From: a virus | IMG/VR virus record: IMGVR_UViG_3300011416_000149 | Coordinates: 1 to 20,305 of that record | DNA length: 20,305 nt | Reading direction: 5' to 3' (one strand) | Shown: one piece after another, positions 4,247-19,263 of the stretch | Position numbering within the stretch: the stretch's first letter is position 1 | Layout: each line of letters opens with the position of its first letter | The notes under the pieces: generated by a model | What the model was told of the DNA's origin: nothing | The model's input: the letters and a program-made list of their open reading frames with translations, nothing else | Database searches by the model: none | Program-made: the position numbers and the translations under genes

Positions 4247-6331
4247 GTGTCGCGGTGCGTCATTGGAGCTTTGTTGTTTATGTTGACGGCTCCGGCGCCA
4301 ACGCGGGCGTCGTTTCGCGATCGGTTTGAGCGATTCTTCGATGCTTCGGCAACGGCTCCCGTCCGCACGATGCGTCAGTTCGCAGAGGAAGAGTTGATCC
4401 TGTTCACGGGCGACTACCGCGGCAAGCGGTTCCGGGTCGCGCGGCAGCCGGTGACGGGCCTGTTGCTCGATGCTATCGACAGCGGCCGCTACACGATGTT
4501 TGTGATCACCGGGCCGTCGCAGAGCGGAAAGACGGTCGTGGGGTTCATCCTGCCGACGCTGTATCACCTGTTCGAACACGGCGAGGACGTGATCTGCGGC
4601 GTTCCCGACCTCAACATGGTTCGGGACAAGTGGGAGAAGGCTCTCTATCCCGCGATCGAGGCCACGCGGTATCGGGATCTGCTGCCGAGGCGTGGAGCCG
4701 GGTCGCGGGGCGGGTCGAACATGAGCGCCGTGCAGTTCCGCAACGGAGCGACGCTGCGTTTTATGACGTCGGGCGGCGATGACAAGAATCGGGCCGGATA
4801 CACGGGCCGCGTGCTGGTGGTGACGGAGTTCGAGGCGTTCGGCGAGTCCGCGGAGAAGAGCACCGAGGCCGACAAGCTCGAGCAGCTCCTGGCACGGCAG
4901 CGGTCATACCGCGGGCCTCGCCGGCGGACTTACCTCGAGTGCACGGTCACGATCGAACAGGGCGCCACGTGGCGGATGTATAAGGCGGGCACCGAGAGTC
5001 GGATTGCGATGCCGTGTCCGAAGTGCAACGGGTGGATGGTGCCGAGCAATGCGGATAGCGACCGCAAGCAACTGGTGGGTTGGGAGGACGCTGCGAATGA
5101 GTTTGAGGCTCACGAGGGCGCCTCGTATGCGTGCGGGCTGTGCGGACAGCGGCTGAGCGAGGCTGAGCGGTTTGAAGCCAACCGCTGGGCTGTGCTGGTG
5201 CATCGCGGGCAGACGATCGAGGGCGGCGCGGTGGTTGGCGAGCATCCCAAGACGCGGACCCTGGGTTTTCGGTGGTCGGCGTTCAATAACGCGTTCCTGA
5301 CGGCCGGTGACATCGCCGAGGACGAGTTCCGGGCTCGCAACGACCCGGACGAGGACAACGCGAGCCGGCGGATCCATCAATTCGTTTGGGCGCTGCCGTA
5401 TCAGCCGAGCGCGATGGACTCTACGCCACTGAATTGGGAAGACGTGAAGCGGAGGACGGACCGCGAGGCCAAGGGCATCGTCCCGATCAACACGCAGTGG
5501 CTGACGGTCGGGTTGGATCTTGGCAAATACCTGGCTCACTACGTGGTGATCGCGTGGCGGGCGGACCTGCGCGGACACGTCGTAGACTATGGCCGGTTCG
5601 AGATCCCGACGGATCAGCTCGGTGTCGAGCGTGCGACCCTGGCGGCGCTGCGGCAGCTTCGAGACGAAACGCTGTTGATGGGCTGGGCGTGGCCTGGCGG
5701 GACGGCGAAGGACGGCCACAAGCGTCCGGATCAGGTGTGGATCGACTCGAACTACCATGAGTCACAGCAGGCAGTTTATACCTGGTGCCGTGAGACGGCA
5801 CAGAATTTGCGGTCCGAGCTGTGTCGGCCGTGCGTGGGCCGTTCGGCCGGTCAGCAGCGGAGCCTTGTGTACCGGCATCCGAAGGCGACGTCGGCGACGA
5901 TCAAGCTGGTCGGCGAAGAGTTTCACATCGTATGGCTGAAGGCCGACGCCATGCACGTCGTCGAGGTAAACGCCGACTATTGGAAGAGTTGGGTTCATCA
6001 GCGATTTCGAACGCCGGGCACGGAGCCGGGTTCGTTGACCCTGTTCCATTCTCCGAGCGCAAACGAACACCATGCGTTTGCGAAGCACATCACGGCCGAG
6101 AAGCAGCTTGAGGAGTTTATCGCCGGCAAGGGTATGCAGGTTCGGTGGGACCGCATCCGTCGGGATAACCACTGGTTCGACTGTTCGTATCTGGCGTGCG
6201 CTGCGGGAAGTTTCTGCGGCGCACGCATTATTCCGACGGGCGTCACGCGTCCGGCGCGGCGCGGAGGCATCACGGGCACGCCGTTGACGATGCCTGACGG
6301 GAGGCCGTTTTTTGTGGGAGATCGCACATGA
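4247..6331 (+). CDS. terL: Terminase large subunit, GpA family
   Basis: A 694-aa ATPase-nuclease that cuts concatemers and pumps DNA into the prohead. Visible parts: Walker A GPSQSGKT at residues 89-96; a Walker B-like strand VLVVTEFE at 189-196, with Thr-Glu where Asp-Glu is usual; a zinc-ribbon-like Cys quartet C257-x2-C260 and C296-x2-C299; and an RNase H-like nuclease domain with acidic residues D424 (VGLDLGKY), D500 (QVWIDSNY) and D645 (HWFDCSYL). The length suits GpA-type terminases. GTG 4247 has GGGAG seven bases upstream and follows the previous stop directly. An alternative ATG at 4280 (GGAG 11 bases upstream) would remove a hydrophobic N-terminal stretch and begin closer to the usual RDRFERFFD segment. 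It partners with the small subunit and docks on the portal. Confidence 0.95.
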   Translation: MSRCVIGALLFMLTAPAPTRASFRDRFERFFDASATAPVRTMRQFAEEELILFTGDYRGKRFRVARQPVTGLLLDAIDSGRYTMFVITGPSQSGKTVVGFILPTLYHLFEHGEDVICGVPDLNMVRDKWEKALYPAIEATRYRDLLPRRGAGSRGGSNMSAVQFRNGATLRFMTSGGDDKNRAGYTGRVLVVTEFEAFGESAEKSTEADKLEQLLARQRSYRGPRRRTYLECTVTIEQGATWRMYKAGTESRIAMPCPKCNGWMVPSNADSDRKQLVGWEDAANEFEAHEGASYACGLCGQRLSEAERFEANRWAVLVHRGQTIEGGAVVGEHPKTRTLGFRWSAFNNAFLTAGDIAEDEFRARNDPDEDNASRRIHQFVWALPYQPSAMDSTPLNWEDVKRRTDREAKGIVPINTQWLTVGLDLGKYLAHYVVIAWRADLRGHVVDYGRFEIPTDQLGVERATLAALRQLRDETLLMGWAWPGGTAKDGHKRPDQVWIDSNYHESQQAVYTWCRETAQNLRSELCRPCVGRSAGQQRSLVYRHPKATSATIKLVGEEFHIVWLKADAMHVVEVNADYWKSWVHQRFRTPGTEPGSLTLFHSPSANEHHAFAKHITAEKQLEEFIAGKGMQVRWDRIRRDNHWFDCSYLACAAGSFCGARIIPTGVTRPARRGGITGTPLTMPDGRPFFVGDRT

Positions 6332-9359: not shown

Positions 9360-10689
9360 CGAACCATTCATTCCCCACATTGAGCAATACACGTCGTCGC
9401 CGTGGGCGATCACTGAGCGCGAATTCAACGCGCTGCGGGAGTTCATGACGGGTCGCGACATGCTGGCCCACGTGCGCGAACACCAGGCGAAGGCCAAGAC
9501 GGTCGAGCCGAGCAACGGCGCCCCGTATGAGCTTGAGGACGGCATCGCGACGGTGGAACTGCGCGGCACCATGACCAAGTACGGTTCGTCGTTCTCTGGC
9601 TATCACGGCAGTGTGCGTTTGCGGCGCACCATCCGCCAGCTTGCATCTAATGAAGACGTGTCGGGCATCATGCTGCGCATCGACAGTGGCGGCGGATCGG
9701 TCATGGGCACGGGCGATCTTGCGGACGAGGTGTACGAAGCCGCGAAAGCCAAAACTGTCACCGCGTTCATCGAGGACATCGGCGCATCGGCCGCCTACAT
9801 CGTCGCCTCGCAGGCGACGCGCGTCGTGGCCGGGCCAAACGCAAGCGTTGGCAGCATCGGCGTTTACACCGCTTTGCAGGACTGGTCGGGCCTCTACGCG
9901 CGTGAGGGCGTCAAGGTTCACGTAGTGCGTGCGGGGCGTTTCAAGGGCATGGGCACGGCCGGCACCGAGGTCACGGCCGAGCAGCTCACCGAACTCCAGC
10001 GCGAGGTTGATGAGATCAACGCTCAGTTCGTCGGCGCGGTCGCGCGAGGCCGGCGCATGACGGATGAGGCGGCGATGGAGCTTGCCGATGGTCGCATTCA
10101 CCGGGCGAATGCCGCGAAAGAGATGAAGCTCATCGACGCCGTGCAGACGTTCGACGCGGCGATGAGCGAGATGAGGGGGAAGGTTCAAACGAAGACAAAA
10201 GCCGGAGCGCGTGCTTCGGCGACTGGTGCCATACAGGAGATAGTCATGGCTGATGAAACCAAGGATGTGAAGCCGGTCGCCGAAGCTCCCAAGGCGGCAA
10301 CGATCGGCGAGATCAAGGCCGCGATTCCCGACGCAGAGCCGGGCAAGATCATCGGCTGGCTCGAAAAGAGCTTCACGCTCGCGCAGTGCAAGGATGCGCA
10401 CATGGACCATTTGCGTGTCGAGGTTCTGGCGGCCACTGCGGCCGCACAGAAGGCCGAGTCGGCATTAAAGAAGCCGGGCCTTGATCCGGTGAAAGACGTC
10501 GGCGGATCGTCCGCGAGTAGTTCGGGCGGCGATGCCATCAACGAATGGAACGCCGCACTTGATGAAAAGATCAAGGGCGGAATGAGCCGCGAGAAGGCCG
10601 CTCGCCAGCTCGCGAAGGAAAAGCCGGAGCTGCGACAAGCGATGATCGTCGCATGGAATGATCCGGCGCGGCTGCGCATGGTCGGCTAG
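9349..10689 (+). CDS. S49 (SppA/gpC-type) prohead protease with C-terminal scaffold region
   Basis: A 446-aa protein. The N-terminal 290 residues are an S49 serine protease: IDSGGGSV (112-118), the nucleophile S147 in DIGASAAY and the general base K199 in RAGRFKGMGT. The Ser-Lys spacing of 52 residues matches that of Bacillus SppA. SVGSIGVYT (166-174) is a family signature. In lambda-like phages gpC processes the prohead. Residues 300-446 are Ala/Lys/Glu-rich and helical, like a scaffold, and can start independently at an internal ATG (separate entry). SD GGAG at 9338-9341 lies seven bases before ATG 9349. Confidence 0.9.
   Translation: MLPDEPFIPHIEQYTSSPWAITEREFNALREFMTGRDMLAHVREHQAKAKTVEPSNGAPYELEDGIATVELRGTMTKYGSSFSGYHGSVRLRRTIRQLASNEDVSGIMLRIDSGGGSVMGTGDLADEVYEAAKAKTVTAFIEDIGASAAYIVASQATRVVAGPNASVGSIGVYTALQDWSGLYAREGVKVHVVRAGRFKGMGTAGTEVTAEQLTELQREVDEINAQFVGAVARGRRMTDEAAMELADGRIHRANAAKEMKLIDAVQTFDAAMSEMRGKVQTKTKAGARASATGAIQEIVMADETKDVKPVAEAPKAATIGEIKAAIPDAEPGKIIGWLEKSFTLAQCKDAHMDHLRVEVLAATAAAQKAESALKKPGLDPVKDVGGSSASSSGGDAINEWNAALDEKIKGGMSREKAARQLAKEKPELRQAMIVAWNDPARLRMVG
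10246..10689 (+). CDS. Nested scaffold protein (Nu3-like) in the protease gene
   Basis: An in-frame internal ATG at codon 300 of the protease gene is preceded by AGGAG at 10235-10239, six bases upstream, a better SD than most genes in this window. The product would be 147 aa, acidic to mixed charge, helical, with Ala-rich repeats (LAATAAAQKAESALKK) and a charged C terminus (SREKAARQLAKEKPELR). The layout is that of lambda, where scaffold gpNu3 is made from an internal start within gene C. The capsid protein lacks an extended N-terminal scaffold-like region, which fits a separate scaffold. Assignment is by architecture and SD; no homology search was done. Confidence 0.65.
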   Translation: MADETKDVKPVAEAPKAATIGEIKAAIPDAEPGKIIGWLEKSFTLAQCKDAHMDHLRVEVLAATAAAQKAESALKKPGLDPVKDVGGSSASSSGGDAINEWNAALDEKIKGGMSREKAARQLAKEKPELRQAMIVAWNDPARLRMVG

Positions 10690-12232: not shown

Positions 12233-12775
12233 ATGGACGACAGGCCATCGGTGGGAATTCTGTGTTCGGGTCCGTGTTTTGCTGAGTTTCTGAAGTGGCG
12301 ACCGTTCCATGACATCTTCATCACCATCAATCGAACGGCAGAAATTTTCGGAGCCCAGTACTGGGTGTGCGGAGACGGCGAGCCGTTTGATTGGATCACG
12401 GAGATGGGATCGCCAAGTTGTGTCACGTGGAAGGGCGCGCACCAGCGAATGAATCGCCCGAAGGAACGACGGCAATGGTTGTGGCTGGACGACACGAAGA
12501 TCGGGACGCGATGTCCGAGCGAAAAGAATTGGATGGGCCAGTCACTAACGTGCGCGATGGTGTTCGCCGAGCACTTGTTGCGGCCTTCGGAAGTTTGCAT
12601 TTACGGAGCTTCCTGGTCCGGCGATCAAGACTGGGACGGCCGGACTGCGAGTGTCAGGCACAGCGACCGCTGGGCCAATGAGATCAATTGCACCGGCCTC
12701 GTGGCTGGTTGGCTGAGAAGCGCGTGCGGGATTGAAACGAAACGATTCATCAACGGTAGATATGAATCGGTTTGA
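12233..12775 (+). CDS. Rossmann-like, glycosyltransferase-type cargo protein
   Basis: A 180-aa protein not typical of a head module. The N terminus GILCSGPCFAEFLKW, then DIFITINRTAEIF and QYWVCGDGEPFDW, resemble the nucleotide-binding start of the GT42 sialyltransferase and motility-accessory-factor type of Rossmann-like fold, in which a G-x-GPS-like loop is followed by an N-R segment and a strand ending in Asp. A later YGASWSGDQDWDGR resembles the second conserved region of such phage proteins. Seven cysteines and many Trp are present. ATG 12233 has GAGGA four bases upstream. It lies between the capsid and head-completion genes, as morons do. Possible roles are host-surface or virion modification. 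The family link is by eye and should be treated as tentative. Confidence 0.55.
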   Translation: MDDRPSVGILCSGPCFAEFLKWRPFHDIFITINRTAEIFGAQYWVCGDGEPFDWITEMGSPSCVTWKGAHQRMNRPKERRQWLWLDDTKIGTRCPSEKNWMGQSLTCAMVFAEHLLRPSEVCIYGASWSGDQDWDGRTASVRHSDRWANEINCTGLVAGWLRSACGIETKRFINGRYESV

Positions 12776-14799: not shown

Positions 14800-15344
14800 G
14801 CATCGCCGTTACACCAACCGGACCGCTGAGCCTGCCGCTGTTCCATCTGCGCGAGATGCTGGCGGACTCGCCCGCGTTCCAGGCGTTCGTGAACGCGGCC
14901 AACGCGGCCGAGGCGCGCGAACGCATTCATTACAGCGCGCTGCCTGCGCAATATGGAGAGACCTACACGGTTGAGGAACTGAACGAGCTCCGGCCGTTCG
15001 CGATGATCGGCATTCCGTCGGAAGAGTCGTACGAGATGACGACGATCGCCGGCGGCGGGCCGTTCAACTGGACGGACGAAGGTCAGATCATCCTCTACCT
15101 CGAATGGGACGTGGCGGACGCGTTTCAGCGCGACCGAGCTGCCGCGGATGTGGATGCCATGAACACGATCGGCGCGATCCTGTCGGAGATTCAGGACCGT
15201 TCGGGCCTGGCCGGGTTTCTGTGCATCGACAGGATCAGGCTGTCGGCGATCTTTCGCACGAAGACCGAAGAGCACAACACGCAAGGCGACGCGTACATGG
15301 TCGAGCTGACGCTCAATTGGAACGGGGGTCGATCGGGCGAATGA
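14796..15344 (+). CDS. Tail-terminator/tail-completion-like protein
   Basis: A 182-aa protein. ATG 14796 overlaps the previous stop (ATGA) and has AGGAAAG at 14782-14788. The layout is alpha-beta: an N-terminal helix (FHLREMLADSPAFQAFVNAA), a central segment with RPFAMIGIPSEESYE, a Trp-containing strand (NWTDEGQIILYLEWDV), a helix (DAMNTIGAILSEIQDRS) and a final strand (AYMVELTLNWN). This order of a long helix and ending strand fits tail-terminator proteins of the gpU type. It lies between head-closure and tail-tube genes, as such proteins do. The identity is inferred. Confidence 0.5.
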   Translation: MSIAVTPTGPLSLPLFHLREMLADSPAFQAFVNAANAAEARERIHYSALPAQYGETYTVEELNELRPFAMIGIPSEESYEMTTIAGGGPFNWTDEGQIILYLEWDVADAFQRDRAAADVDAMNTIGAILSEIQDRSGLAGFLCIDRIRLSAIFRTKTEEHNTQGDAYMVELTLNWNGGRSGE

Positions 15345-15784
15345 TCCTTAAGTTCACCATCAAGCGCCGCCCGCGATGGCTGAGTAAACGAGCCTGGCAG
15401 GGGGTCACGCGCGAGTCATTCCACGCGCTCGGCGTGTACTGGCATAAGTACCTGCGAAAGAAGCACTTCACGCAGACGGGCGCGCGAGAGTACGGCTACG
15501 ACGTGCGCAGCAGAAAATACGAGGCACTGAAGCTGCGACGCTTCGGGCACCGCGACCCGCTGGTGTACACCGGGACCTCGAAGGCTCTGACGGCTATCCG
15601 CGACGTGCGCTCTACCGCCAAAGGCGTGCGGGTGGTGATGCGGGCGCCGGGCTTGAACCGGCGAGCGCGCGGCAAGCGAACCGCGATGTATGACGAGATG
15701 ACGATGATCTCGGACCGCGAGCGTCCGGAGCTCGTGGACGTGTTTCGCAAGGAAGTGAACCGGCGGCTGAAGGATATGCAGTAA
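15341..15784 (+). CDS. Tail-completion protein (gpZ/HK97 gp10-like)
   Basis: ATG 15341 overlaps the previous stop (ATGA); a longer frame upstream (from 15104) is a shadow. The 147-aa product is very basic: MILKFTIKRRPRWLSKRAWQ, then YWHKYLRKKHFTQTGAREYG, a PLVYTGTSKALT loop and a C-terminal helix (ERPELVDVFRKEVNRRLKDM). A basic protein with a central YTG-type loop at this position is typical of neck or tail-completion proteins of the gp10/gpZ group. Assigned from position and charge pattern. Confidence 0.55.
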   Translation: MILKFTIKRRPRWLSKRAWQGVTRESFHALGVYWHKYLRKKHFTQTGAREYGYDVRSRKYEALKLRRFGHRDPLVYTGTSKALTAIRDVRSTAKGVRVVMRAPGLNRRARGKRTAMYDEMTMISDRERPELVDVFRKEVNRRLKDMQ

Positions 15785-15923: not shown

Positions 15924-16955
15924 ATGTCGGTGACACGAGCACACGTACTCCATGCAATCAGCATTGGCGACCCGTCTGTTGAGGCCAACGTCATTCGTAG
16001 CATCACCCAGCAGAGCTTGCCGCTGGGTATCGACCTCGACAGCGAGGCAACCGGCGGCGAGGTGTATCCGCGGTTCCAGGCGGTGCGCGGCGTCGCTCCG
16101 CGGCTGATGTTCACGACCCTGGACGTGGCCAAGATTCTGGCGCTGGTCGACTTCGATGGCGTGTCCATCAACTCGATCGCGGGTGCCGACAAGCTCAAGG
16201 CGTACCTCAACAAGACCGTTCTCGGCGGAACGCGGGCGGCCGGATCCGCACACAAGAGCTTCCAGGCTGAGCACGGCCTCATCGTGCCGCGGCGGCTTTC
16301 CTGTGACCACCAGGGCAACGCCTCACTGAGCTATGAGGCGTTTATCACCGACGCAGCGGGCGATCTCGGGACCGACAGTGCCCTCATCATCTCTGAGGCG
16401 GTTGCACTGCCTGCGATTACCGCTCCGACGATGCTCCGGCACACACTCGGACCGCTGTCGCTCACCAATCGGGCGGGGACCGGCGTCGTCGTCTACGACC
16501 ACCTGAAGGGCTTCGAACTCGACTTCGGCGTCGACGTGGTCGTCGAGGGCAGTGACTCGGATTTGATCGGGACGTACCCCTGGATTCGTGGCATCGCGCC
16601 AACGGTGACATTTCGTGGCATCGATTCCGATTGGCTCGCGAACACGGCCGCGGCGATCGCGGCCACCGAAACAACGATCCCATTCCAGACCGATAACGAC
16701 ACGAACCCGGGGTTCTGCCGTTCCGTAATTCACACGCAGTCAAAGTTTTTCCTCCGCAAGCGGCTTGAGGGCGGGACCTACGTGCCCGATGCGACGGCCG
16801 AGCACGTCAAGATGACGTTCAAGGGTCTGGCGTATCTGGAGAACGCCTTCGACGTGAACGGGCAAGACCTGAACACGATGAATTTGATCATTCGCGCGGC
16901 GTTCGACAACACCAACGCGCCGGTGGCCATCACTCTCAATCAGGCGATCGCGTAA
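15924..16955 (+). CDS. Putative major tail tube protein
   Basis: A 343-aa protein. ATG 15924 has GAAGGG at 15911-15916 seven bases upstream; the frame extends upstream through the terminator region to 15849 but that part is not likely coding. The protein has alternating strands and loops: VYPRFQAVRGVAPRLMFTTL, VPRRLSCDHQGNASLSYEAF, a middle domain with LKGFELDFGVDVVVEGSDSD, then PTVTFRGIDSDWL, HVKMTFKGLAYLENAF and a C-terminal ITLNQAIA. VxxRFxx and VxMTFxG segments are seen in phage tube proteins. It sits just upstream of the tape-measure module. No sheath gene is visible. The assignment is from position and beta character. Confidence 0.5.
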   Translation: MSVTRAHVLHAISIGDPSVEANVIRSITQQSLPLGIDLDSEATGGEVYPRFQAVRGVAPRLMFTTLDVAKILALVDFDGVSINSIAGADKLKAYLNKTVLGGTRAAGSAHKSFQAEHGLIVPRRLSCDHQGNASLSYEAFITDAAGDLGTDSALIISEAVALPAITAPTMLRHTLGPLSLTNRAGTGVVVYDHLKGFELDFGVDVVVEGSDSDLIGTYPWIRGIAPTVTFRGIDSDWLANTAAAIAATETTIPFQTDNDTNPGFCRSVIHTQSKFFLRKRLEGGTYVPDATAEHVKMTFKGLAYLENAFDVNGQDLNTMNLIIRAAFDNTNAPVAITLNQAIA

Positions 16956-17746
16956 TGGCCGGGTTTCTCTACTTCATTCCGCAGGGCGCCAGCCCGGCCG
17001 ACCGCGGCGGGCTCTCGTACGCGCTCGGCAAGTCCTTGGAAAGTCGCAAGTGCCTCGCGGGGCCCGACAAAAACGCCGGCACCATGCTCGCCGATCCTGC
17101 GCGGGTTCCGGCCGATCTCGTCGGCTACTACCCGGAACGTCAGACGTGGCGGCAGATACCGGGCAGCACGTGCTGGGTTGGCTTCACGAACGACAAGCCG
17201 CCGACGCCTACAGATCTCGCGCGAGCGGAACAGCTTCGCGGACACATGGTCACGCTGAGCGACGGGAATGAGTGGCTGATTCCGGTGGCGCGGGCGCTGC
17301 GTGAGACGGAAGGTGGCGAGATCATCAACGGCGGGTGCGTGCTCCCGACCATGGTGGACGTGAACGCAAGCGGCGAGTGGGTCGTCGGCGTGGTGCATCC
17401 GAAACACGCGAAGCTCTGGGACGCGGCTTGCGCGTGGCTGCCGGCGCTCACCGGGGCGGTCGAAGACGCGGGCCAGTTCACATTCGACATGGCGGACGCG
17501 TTGGACGCTGCGCTCGTGGCACTGGGAACCAATTACGCGGTTGGCAAGATTGAAGCGGCGATGTTCGGTTTGTTCGACGATCAGCGAGTATTTGGCGTGC
17601 TGGGTGCGGTAATTGACCTGCCGACCTTCGCGGCGTGGCACAAAAAAAAAGCAGCGCAGCAGAGCCAAGCGGCGCCCGCTGGCTCGAATATCGACGCTGG
17701 TCCGTCGGCCGACACGGCGGATACCGGCCTAGTGTTGCAGACCTGA
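16955..17746 (+). CDS. Tail assembly chaperone-like protein (zero-frame product)
   Basis: A 263-aa protein. Its ATG overlaps the previous TAA by one base. The N-terminal part has short Gly/Pro-rich strands and Trp residues (GYYPERQTWRQIPG, STCWVGFTNDKPPTPTDL); the C-terminal half is helical (FTFDMADALDAALVAL, NYAVGKIEAAMFGLFD) and ends in a low-complexity Ala/Gln/Ser tail. Lambda-like phages encode the G and GT chaperones directly before the tape measure gene and make GT by -1 frameshift. This gene has that position and carries an A9 run with a downstream stem-loop near its end (separate entry). A -1 shift at codon 232 would replace the last 31 residues with 39 others ending at 17769. The family match is positional; I do not recognise the sequence itself. 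Confidence 0.55.
   Translation: MAGFLYFIPQGASPADRGGLSYALGKSLESRKCLAGPDKNAGTMLADPARVPADLVGYYPERQTWRQIPGSTCWVGFTNDKPPTPTDLARAEQLRGHMVTLSDGNEWLIPVARALRETEGGEIINGGCVLPTMVDVNASGEWVVGVVHPKHAKLWDAACAWLPALTGAVEDAGQFTFDMADALDAALVALGTNYAVGKIEAAMFGLFDDQRVFGVLGAVIDLPTFAAWHKKKAAQQSQAAPAGSNIDAGPSADTADTGLVLQT
17642..17685 (+). other. Probable -1 ribosomal frameshift signal
   Basis: Nine consecutive A at 17642-17650 read CAC AAA AAA AAA G in the zero frame and contain the slippery heptamer A AAA AAA. After an 11-base spacer comes a 10-bp GC-rich stem (17662-17685) with one bulged A and a CGC loop: GAGCCA(A)GCGG with CCGCTGGCTC. A slip of -1 opens a new frame to a stop at 17767-17769, three bases before the tape measure ATG. 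The spacer is somewhat longer than is usual. The run could also be a sequencing or assembly risk point. Confidence 0.6.
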
Positions 17747-17772
17747 GAGCTTTGGAACTGGGATGGTAGTCG

Positions 17773-19263
17773 ATGGCACGCGGACTTGTTATCGAGATGA
17801 CCGGCGACGACGCGGACGTCATGCGCCGGTTTATGAAACTCGAAGGCAAGTTGAAAGACACAGAAGCGAGATTGCGAGAGCTGGGCAGCACCAGCCGTAA
17901 GACTTCGAAGGATCTGTCGGAGGGTTTCGGGACGCAGGCGATCAGCTCGCTCGCCAGTTACGCTACGGGATTGCTCAGCATCGGAGCCGCCTGGCGCGGC
18001 ATCACCGGGACGATGGAGAATGCACTTCGTGTGCAAAGCCTCTTCGCAACCGAGGCGGGCAAGGCTGCACGGGAATACATCACCCTAGCCGCACTCCAAG
18101 AGGGTGGAACCAAACAACAACGCGTCCTTGAAGCCGCAAAGCTCGCATCGCGATATGGAGTCACAGACCGAGCCGCAGCGTTCGACGTTGTGCAGGGTCT
18201 TCAGTCGGCCCGCGGCGGCGACTTCAAGGCCGGTATGGCCGCCGCGCGCGAGGTGTTTGCGGCCTCGCTGCTGGGCGTTCCACCGGCGATCGGTGCGGAA
18301 CTCGAAATGACCGGCGCGGCCCTTGGCGCGGGGCCGGGACAGTTCCTGCGGCAAGCCTACGTGGCGGGACAGTTGTCGGCTCGCGACCCCAAGACTATTG
18401 GCAAGGCCGCGGCCGCGATGGCGTTCTTTCCCGACAAGGCGTTCGGGTTTGCGTCCGCTGGTGTGCTCGCGGGCCCGTTCGGGGCCGAGGTGGACACCTA
18501 CGCGAAGGCGGCCGGTCGATCTCTCGGCCGCACGGCGGACATGCCGTTTCAGAAGACGCTGAAAAAACTCGGTGTGCTCGACGCCTCGCAGATGGGAATG
18601 GTCGAAGCGCTGGCGGGCGCTGGCATGGGAACGCCGGCGGCACTCAGTAGGGCAGGGTTGCGCGATATTCGCGAGATGCAGGGCGTGTTGATGCTGGTGC
18701 AGAACCTGCCCGAGCTGAAACGCATCTATGCGGGCATTCAGTCTGGCGCGGGCCCCGGAATTCTCGACACGCAACGCCTGGCTGTTGAATCAGAGATTCC
18801 GGTCGCCGCGGCTGCGCGGGAGCGGGAACAGCTTCAGACGATGTTCCGCGACGTGCCCATGATGAACGAGGATTCCGTGCGCGGCGAGAACCTTCGCCGG
18901 GCGAAGGGCGTGGCGCTTCGACGCATGGGCATGGAATATCTCGGACCTATTCCGCTGGTGAATGACGAGGGCCTTCCCTACTGGTTCACCGAGTGGGTGA
19001 CCACGATGTTCGGCAACGTCCAAGAATTTGGACGCATGGTCGGCGGTCGCGGCAGGCGAATGGCCGGAATGGAAGGCATGACACTACGCGCGGACGAACA
19101 GTCCGTGACCGAACGTTTTGTTGAAAAGCTTGATGAGGTGTTGCAAGAACTCAAGCGTCAGACCGGCGCACTCGAACGCAGTCCGGCCGGTCCGCTGAAA
19201 TATCCGCCCGGCGTCGAGCCTGGCGCGTTCGGCGTGCCGAACTATCAGCCGTCGGTGTTTTGA
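17773..19263 (+). CDS. Tape measure protein (short)
   Basis: A 496-aa protein, Ala/Gly-rich and mostly helical. The N terminus (MARGLVIEMTGDDADVMRR, then a Lys/Glu/Arg helix such as LKDTEARLRELGS) is typical of tape measure proteins, followed by a hydrophobic segment near residues 55-75 (ISSLASYATGLLSIGAAW). The middle has Ala/Gly helices (AREVFAASLLGVPPAIGAEL), and the end a coiled-coil-like helix (TERFVEKLDEVLQELKRQTG). It follows the chaperone-like gene and precedes tip genes. By the rule of about 1.5 angstrom per residue the tail would be near 74 nm; the rule is general knowledge, the length is an estimate. No lysozyme or M23 domain is seen. Confidence 0.7.
   Translation: MARGLVIEMTGDDADVMRRFMKLEGKLKDTEARLRELGSTSRKTSKDLSEGFGTQAISSLASYATGLLSIGAAWRGITGTMENALRVQSLFATEAGKAAREYITLAALQEGGTKQQRVLEAAKLASRYGVTDRAAAFDVVQGLQSARGGDFKAGMAAAREVFAASLLGVPPAIGAELEMTGAALGAGPGQFLRQAYVAGQLSARDPKTIGKAAAAMAFFPDKAFGFASAGVLAGPFGAEVDTYAKAAGRSLGRTADMPFQKTLKKLGVLDASQMGMVEALAGAGMGTPAALSRAGLRDIREMQGVLMLVQNLPELKRIYAGIQSGAGPGILDTQRLAVESEIPVAAAAREREQLQTMFRDVPMMNEDSVRGENLRRAKGVALRRMGMEYLGPIPLVNDEGLPYWFTEWVTTMFGNVQEFGRMVGGRGRRMAGMEGMTLRADEQSVTERFVEKLDEVLQELKRQTGALERSPAGPLKYPPGVEPGAFGVPNYQPSVF

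Follow-up and report, generated by a model that had tools for sequence, protein, structure and literature searches.

A nine-adenine run and a conserved -1 extension point to a programmed frame transition in a tail-assembly-chaperone-like phage gene

Frameshifting between a G and a GT product is well known in phage tail assembly, and P2 E/E' and the HK97-type chaperones are related programmed -1 systems. In lambda, binding of the tape measure is the task of the G part and recruitment of the tube protein that of the T part, and both are absent from the virion (PMC5009743). A run of nine adenines (A9) is used for transcriptional slippage in the dnaX gene of Thermus thermophilus (PMC5009743), and likewise in IS elements (PMC1088944, PMC5009743). 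Conserved A9 length has been put forward by Baranov et al. as a sign of polymerase slippage (PMC1088944), and conserved shift direction is regarded by Antonov et al. as the sign of ribosomal shifting (PMC3711429). That study describes, within one family, shifting of 10% for 7 A's, 40% for 9 and 63% for 11, using A-run reporters that do not appear to tell ribosome from polymerase; the slippage directions of IS630 elements were 495 against 185 (PMC3711429).

The window, i.e. the whole stretch of DNA analyzed in this work, is a viral record of 20.3 kb. Its head module is of the lambda type, with a GpA terminase, a portal of the lambda family and an S49 protease, and is followed by a cement protein and, further on, the tail genes; portal, terminase and protease all lie upstream of the chaperone gene considered below. 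The placement of this gene in the tail module agrees with that of lambda G/GT, between tail-tube and tape measure genes; the tube gene itself was not identified by profile. Two further ORFs gave no Pfam match, namely an insert of 180 aa (12233-12775) lying between the major capsid-like gene and the head-tail genes, and one of 586 aa at the left end (1092-2852), which contains many short repeats (AIDADALAANAI and similar units) and perhaps encodes a fibre-like protein.

The G-like product of the locus is encoded in frame 0 by a tail-assembly-chaperone-like gene of 263 aa (16955..17746, + strand), delimited as an ORF and characterized through its homologues, an AlphaFold model and Foldseek. The protein has a folded domain covering approximately residues 1-232, while the residues past the A-run form a short tail of poor conservation. 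It gave no match in Pfam, PHROGs, NCBIfam, PDB sequences or 50,697 phage records, its sequence family being unrecognised by the libraries searched, and a fold search against the PDB returned no matches either. The AlphaFold model, with 41 relatives in the alignment, reached a pLDDT of 93.5 and consists mostly of strands in its N-terminal part and of helices in its C-terminal part. The sole significant Foldseek match among viral models was A0A6J5LCU1, "Tail assembly chaperone" (E 9.7e-4, probability 1.00), with a TM score of 0.51 on the target and a name that is itself an annotation. This single fold match, together with the tape-measure-like gene downstream, suggests that the frame-0 gene encodes a tail assembly chaperone.

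Codons 229-232 of this gene read CAC AAA AAA AAA and are followed by GCA. The A9 run occupies positions 17642..17650 (+ strand) in phase, its heptamer A_AAA_AAA corresponding to 17644-17650. The -1 frame from this point (17650..17769, + strand) encodes a T-like extension of 39 codons, SSAAEPSGARWLEYRRWSVGRHGGYRPSVADLRALELGW, closed by the TAG at 17767-17769; it is basic and rich in Trp and Tyr, and its most conserved core, WLEYRRWSVGRHGGYRPSVADL (17680..17745, + strand), carries the family motif W..G....YRPTxADL. The ATG of an ORF of 496 aa (17773..19263, + strand) stands 3 nt past the extension stop. The first-pass annotation had reported the A9 site, an 11-base spacer, a bulged stem of 10 bp at 17662-17685 and a -1 extension of 39 codons ending three bases ahead of the tape measure ATG, and all these coordinates were confirmed.

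The window's own 17773..19263 protein had no direct profile match. Among relatives, proteins at the tape measure position matched PF10145 PhageMin_Tail above the cut-off (L007) and the phrog_167 tape measure at 2e-6 (L014), and we regard the gene downstream of the extension as tape-measure-like by sequence. The earlier proposal of a GT-like extended chaperone preceding the tape measure gene is supported both by the comparison of relatives and by these profiles. In some relatives a small gene intervenes between chaperone and tape measure. It resembles the window gene at 15299-15781, which belongs to a type of about 155-220 aa across loci with an HF...Y.Y pattern and lies upstream of the tail tube region; its counterparts follow the extension in L004, L033, L034, L039, L051, L053, L054, L093 and L096. 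The placement of this gene differs between the window and these relatives, which constitutes a gene-order swap within the tail module.

The comparison rests on 91 distinct relatives that have the C-terminal extension and in which the shift site could be placed; they come from environmental phage contigs, from planctomycete genomes and, in a few cases, from Lentisphaerae genomes. Scans of IMG/VR yielded about 45 frame-0 homologues, with identities mostly of 25-47%. A DNA scan for the extension motif, requiring neither the A-run nor the upstream protein, matched 34 stretches, one of which, L060, was a chance match within another protein; a second variant of the motif gave 11 matches. Bacterial genome collections contributed seven loci from Planctomycetota and Lentisphaerae metagenome-assembled genomes, and the locus was detected in 11 of 392 and 11 of 397 further sampled bacterial genomes, several times on multi-megabase contigs, these two samples overlapping and including the already known G001 and G002 among their matches. 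In the phylum sample of the Lentisphaerae locus, that locus was the only match, and scans with single proteins (L009 against genome contigs, L097 against viral contigs) returned none. Since relatives lie in such genomes, the host of the window phage would be a member of the Planctomycetota. Six chaperone relatives (L041, L048, equal to L005/L006, L092, L122, L129 and L130) lack both the slip site and the extension; the flanks available for L041, L048, L092 and L122 do not contain the motif, and in most of them the next gene starts at once.

The -1 extension is conserved as protein across the relatives, as judged from the alignments, with the consensus RWLxYRxWxxGLxPxYRPTxADL. The conserved motif lies in the -1 frame in 89 of the 91 relatives. 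As loci retrieved through the motif had been selected for it, frames were compared separately in 43 loci found via frame-0 homology only: over the 40 residues past the run, the mean pairwise score of 58 in the -1 frame exceeded those of frames 0 and +1 (about 26), and -1 was the best-scoring frame in 97% of 903 pairs. This alignment, proposed in the first-pass annotation as a check, came out in its favor, and the losses that it had named as evidence against a shift were not the rule: besides the constancy of the -1 frame just described, a heptamer takes the place of the poly-A where the latter is missing. Furthermore, a -1 stop within 90 nt of the run occurs in a single locus of 71, compared with frame-0 stops in 60 of the 71.

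The slip element itself varies little in length. Of the poly-A loci, 87 in number after removal of duplicates, 73 have A9, seven A10, three A8 and four A7, so that 80 of the 87 carry A9 or A10, all codon phases being represented; even in the motif scan without A-run requirement, a run was present in 33 of the 34 matches. Elsewhere in 611 kb of related loci only one A/T run of nine was found. Given this rarity and the nearly universal placement of the run in relatives, the A9 of the window is not a product of chance. A heptamer A_AAA_AAA or A_AAA_AAG is in phase in every poly-A locus scored. In a set of 73 loci, the 61 A9 runs are distributed over codon phases 0, 1 and 2 as 22/22/17, and runs of at least nine occur in 66 loci, against 9% expected if the heptamer alone mattered (binomial p ~1e-60, computed with relatedness uncorrected). 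Both the excess of long runs and their even spread over phases point to selection on run length as such, whatever the codon phase. Of the 87 poly-A loci, 85 have the motif in the -1 direction. Just two need +1 to reach the motif, L044 (A10, 4689-4698) and L105 (A7, 9717-9723 of the reverse complement, reverse strand); a single added A would restore the ordinary arrangement in both, and therefore sequencing error or polymorphism is possible, as is real polymerase slippage.

The evidence for a stimulatory structure is uneven. The candidate in the window is a stem-loop of 10 bp (6+4 bp with one bulged A; 17662..17685, + strand), separated from the A9 by 11 nt (17651-17661), with an MFE of -16.7 kcal/mol and a z-score between -1.8 and -2.1, 9-17 of 200 shuffles being equally good. 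The first-pass annotation had drawn this structure correctly, but it barely exceeds shuffled sequences, its spacer is long and no counterpart exists at the matching position in relatives; for these reasons we treat it as a possible but unproven stimulator. Nor does the family as a whole conserve a hairpin or pseudoknot at a distance of about 5-9 nt (mean z -0.5) downstream of the slip site, and the overall hairpin signal is weak (paired Wilcoxon p 0.06; z below -2 in 13/73 against 11/292). The A9 majority shows neither a conserved stem-loop nor an upstream Shine-Dalgarno-like stimulator, and the Shine-Dalgarno-like words that adjoin the run may reflect codon content only. Shorter runs behave differently. 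Four loci with A7 or A8 (L012, L083, L085 and L109) have A_AAA_AAA or A_AAA_AAG in phase, and in L012, L083 and L085 a strong stem follows 6 nt downstream. All three in-phase A7 loci have stems of 11-12 bp located 6 nt past the heptamer (z -3.2, -2.0 and -3.6), and hairpins with z below -2 were counted in 3/3 A7 against 10/66 A9/A10 loci (Fisher p 0.005), a test with small numbers in which L012 and L083 may be related.

Four relatives have an in-phase X_XXY_YYZ heptamer in place of the poly-A, close to where the run would stand and with the motif in the -1 frame. The heptamer is G_GGA_AAA in L094 (hairpin z -2.2, 4 nt past the heptamer), G_GGA_AAC in L124 (10-bp hairpin, z -5.2, also at 4 nt), C_CCT_TTT in L097 and G_GGG_GGC in L108, the latter two with no hairpin of note. 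A heptamer of this kind is expected by chance in about one quarter of random overlaps of this size, and therefore each of them alone is weak; jointly, and with the hairpins, they are not. Separately, the stretch L098:901-1130 contains the extension motif in the -1 frame, and neither a poly-A nor an X_XXY_YYZ heptamer was found there by eye.

Taken together, these results indicate that a programmed transition into the -1 frame almost certainly takes place in the chaperone gene. Two other accounts of the -1 frame were considered and rejected. The -1 peptide might come from an independent small gene that has a start of its own, or be translated by coupling at the frame-0 stop, as could be imagined for L002, where ATG and frame-0 stop overlap as ATGA just ahead of the motif. 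However, the window extension contains no ATG or GTG and a TTG only at codon 35, and no -1 start codon separates the run from the motif W in 50 of 73 loci, including that of the window. A frame so devoid of starts speaks against a separate gene, which would moreover leave the nearly universal A-run without a role, and we consider this account very improbable. Even harder to credit is an error in the homopolymer, made in sequencing or in assembly, or an open frame arisen by chance: A9 is error-prone and the window represents one metagenomic contig only, but the run and its -1 relation recur across dozens of independent assemblies, including the multi-megabase bacterial contigs L114, L116, L117 and L119-L121.

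The substantial question is whether ribosome or polymerase makes the transition. RNA polymerase may slip on the 9-bp A/T hybrid and add an A in some mRNAs, the resulting A10 allowing the -1 frame to be read normally, in the manner of Thermus dnaX and numerous IS transposases, either as the main route or jointly with the ribosome in A9 members, with the short-run and heptamer members being ribosomal. The conservation of A9 length among homologues, which is the sign named by Baranov et al. 2005 (PMC1088944), argues for it, as do the independence of this length from phase (22/22/17; a run of at least nine has a probability of 0.09 given the heptamer) and the rarity of hairpins in A9/A10 loci (10/66) by comparison with their presence in 3/3 A7 loci, as if A9 needed none; L044, with A10 and its motif in +1, would fit as well. 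Against it, the direction is constant in 85/87 poly-A loci, unlike in slippage families, which show a mixture of the two (PMC3711429), and both directions occur among these homologues through the two +1 cases L044 and L105 only. Additionally, the members with heptamer and hairpin show that ribosomal shifting is used, at least there, and no tail chaperone made by slippage was found in the literature searched. A ribosomal slip on A_AAA_AAA accounts for the single direction, for the heptamer that is in phase wherever scored and for the heptamer-plus-hairpin members, and as ribosomal shifting alone covers all members, we are inclined to favor the ribosome as the main route. The missing conserved stimulator in the A9 majority, the +1 cases L044 and L105 and the six extension-less relatives count against the ribosomal reading, and a ribosome needing only the heptamer leaves unexplained that A9 occurs about equally in all phases. 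The programmed -1 shift of the first-pass annotation is thus strongly supported by the comparison, but its ribosomal nature is unproved for A9 members because their phase-independent length of nine also fits polymerase slippage. That the ratio of short to long product is set mainly by RNA-polymerase slippage on the phase-independent A9, with the other members using a ribosomal heptamer and hairpin, is a tentative alternative that we hold to be rather doubtful.

We propose that the locus probably belongs to a tail module of the lambda type and encodes its G/GT pair, the extended product arising mainly via a ribosomal -1 shift. Most ribosomes would complete the 263-aa chaperone in frame 0, and a minority would slip -1 on A_AAA_AAA within the A9, presumably by a tandem tRNA-Lys slip, adding a 39-aa basic domain rich in Trp and Tyr that ends just short of the tape measure gene. 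By analogy with lambda gpGT, the frame-0 domain would bind the tape measure and the extension would recruit the tail-tube subunit; a short, basic and aromatic-rich extension would suit a docking peptide.

Neither the family nor its motif nor the fixed A9 switch turned up in the literature and databases searched. They add a frameshifted tail chaperone family unrecognised by the searched libraries, with relatives in Planctomycetota, a host group from which few phages are on record, and about 90 natural variants as a ready comparison set. Annotators gain a rule for detecting a C-terminal domain that would be lost from standard gene calls. As the slip element alternates between A9 without hairpin and a short heptamer with hairpin, the product remaining constant, the question of ribosome or polymerase becomes testable in one family. 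If the polymerase reading were true, the family would be a phage parallel to the dnaX pair of Thermus and E. coli, and possibly the first case in which a tail chaperone does not depend solely on the ribosome for its frameshift.

Compared with known systems, the locus resembles lambda gpG/gpGT in that a chaperone-like gene directly ahead of the tape measure gene would undergo a -1 shift yielding a minority product extended at the C-terminus, and in that the extension stops just before the tape measure gene and is conserved across distant phages. It differs from lambda in showing no detectable sequence relation and in the presence of the family in Planctomycetota and Lentisphaerota genomes, as well as in proportions, with a larger G-like part (about 230 aa, against about 140 aa in lambda) and a very short T-like part (about 35-60 aa in the family). 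Whereas lambda uses the heptamer G_GGA_AAG, the slip site here is a fixed A9 with no conserved stimulator. In this respect it recalls the A9 sites of Thermus dnaX and of IS elements, where a nine-A run of conserved length among homologues likewise leads to two products that differ past the run; unlike those, shifts here run to -1 with hardly an exception, and heptamers with hairpins replace the A9 in some members. The A7/A8 members L012, L083, L085 and L109, with an in-phase heptamer and, in the first three, a downstream stem, are similar to E. coli dnaX (A_AAA_AAG plus hairpin), although shifting gives the shorter product in E. coli and would give the longer one here.
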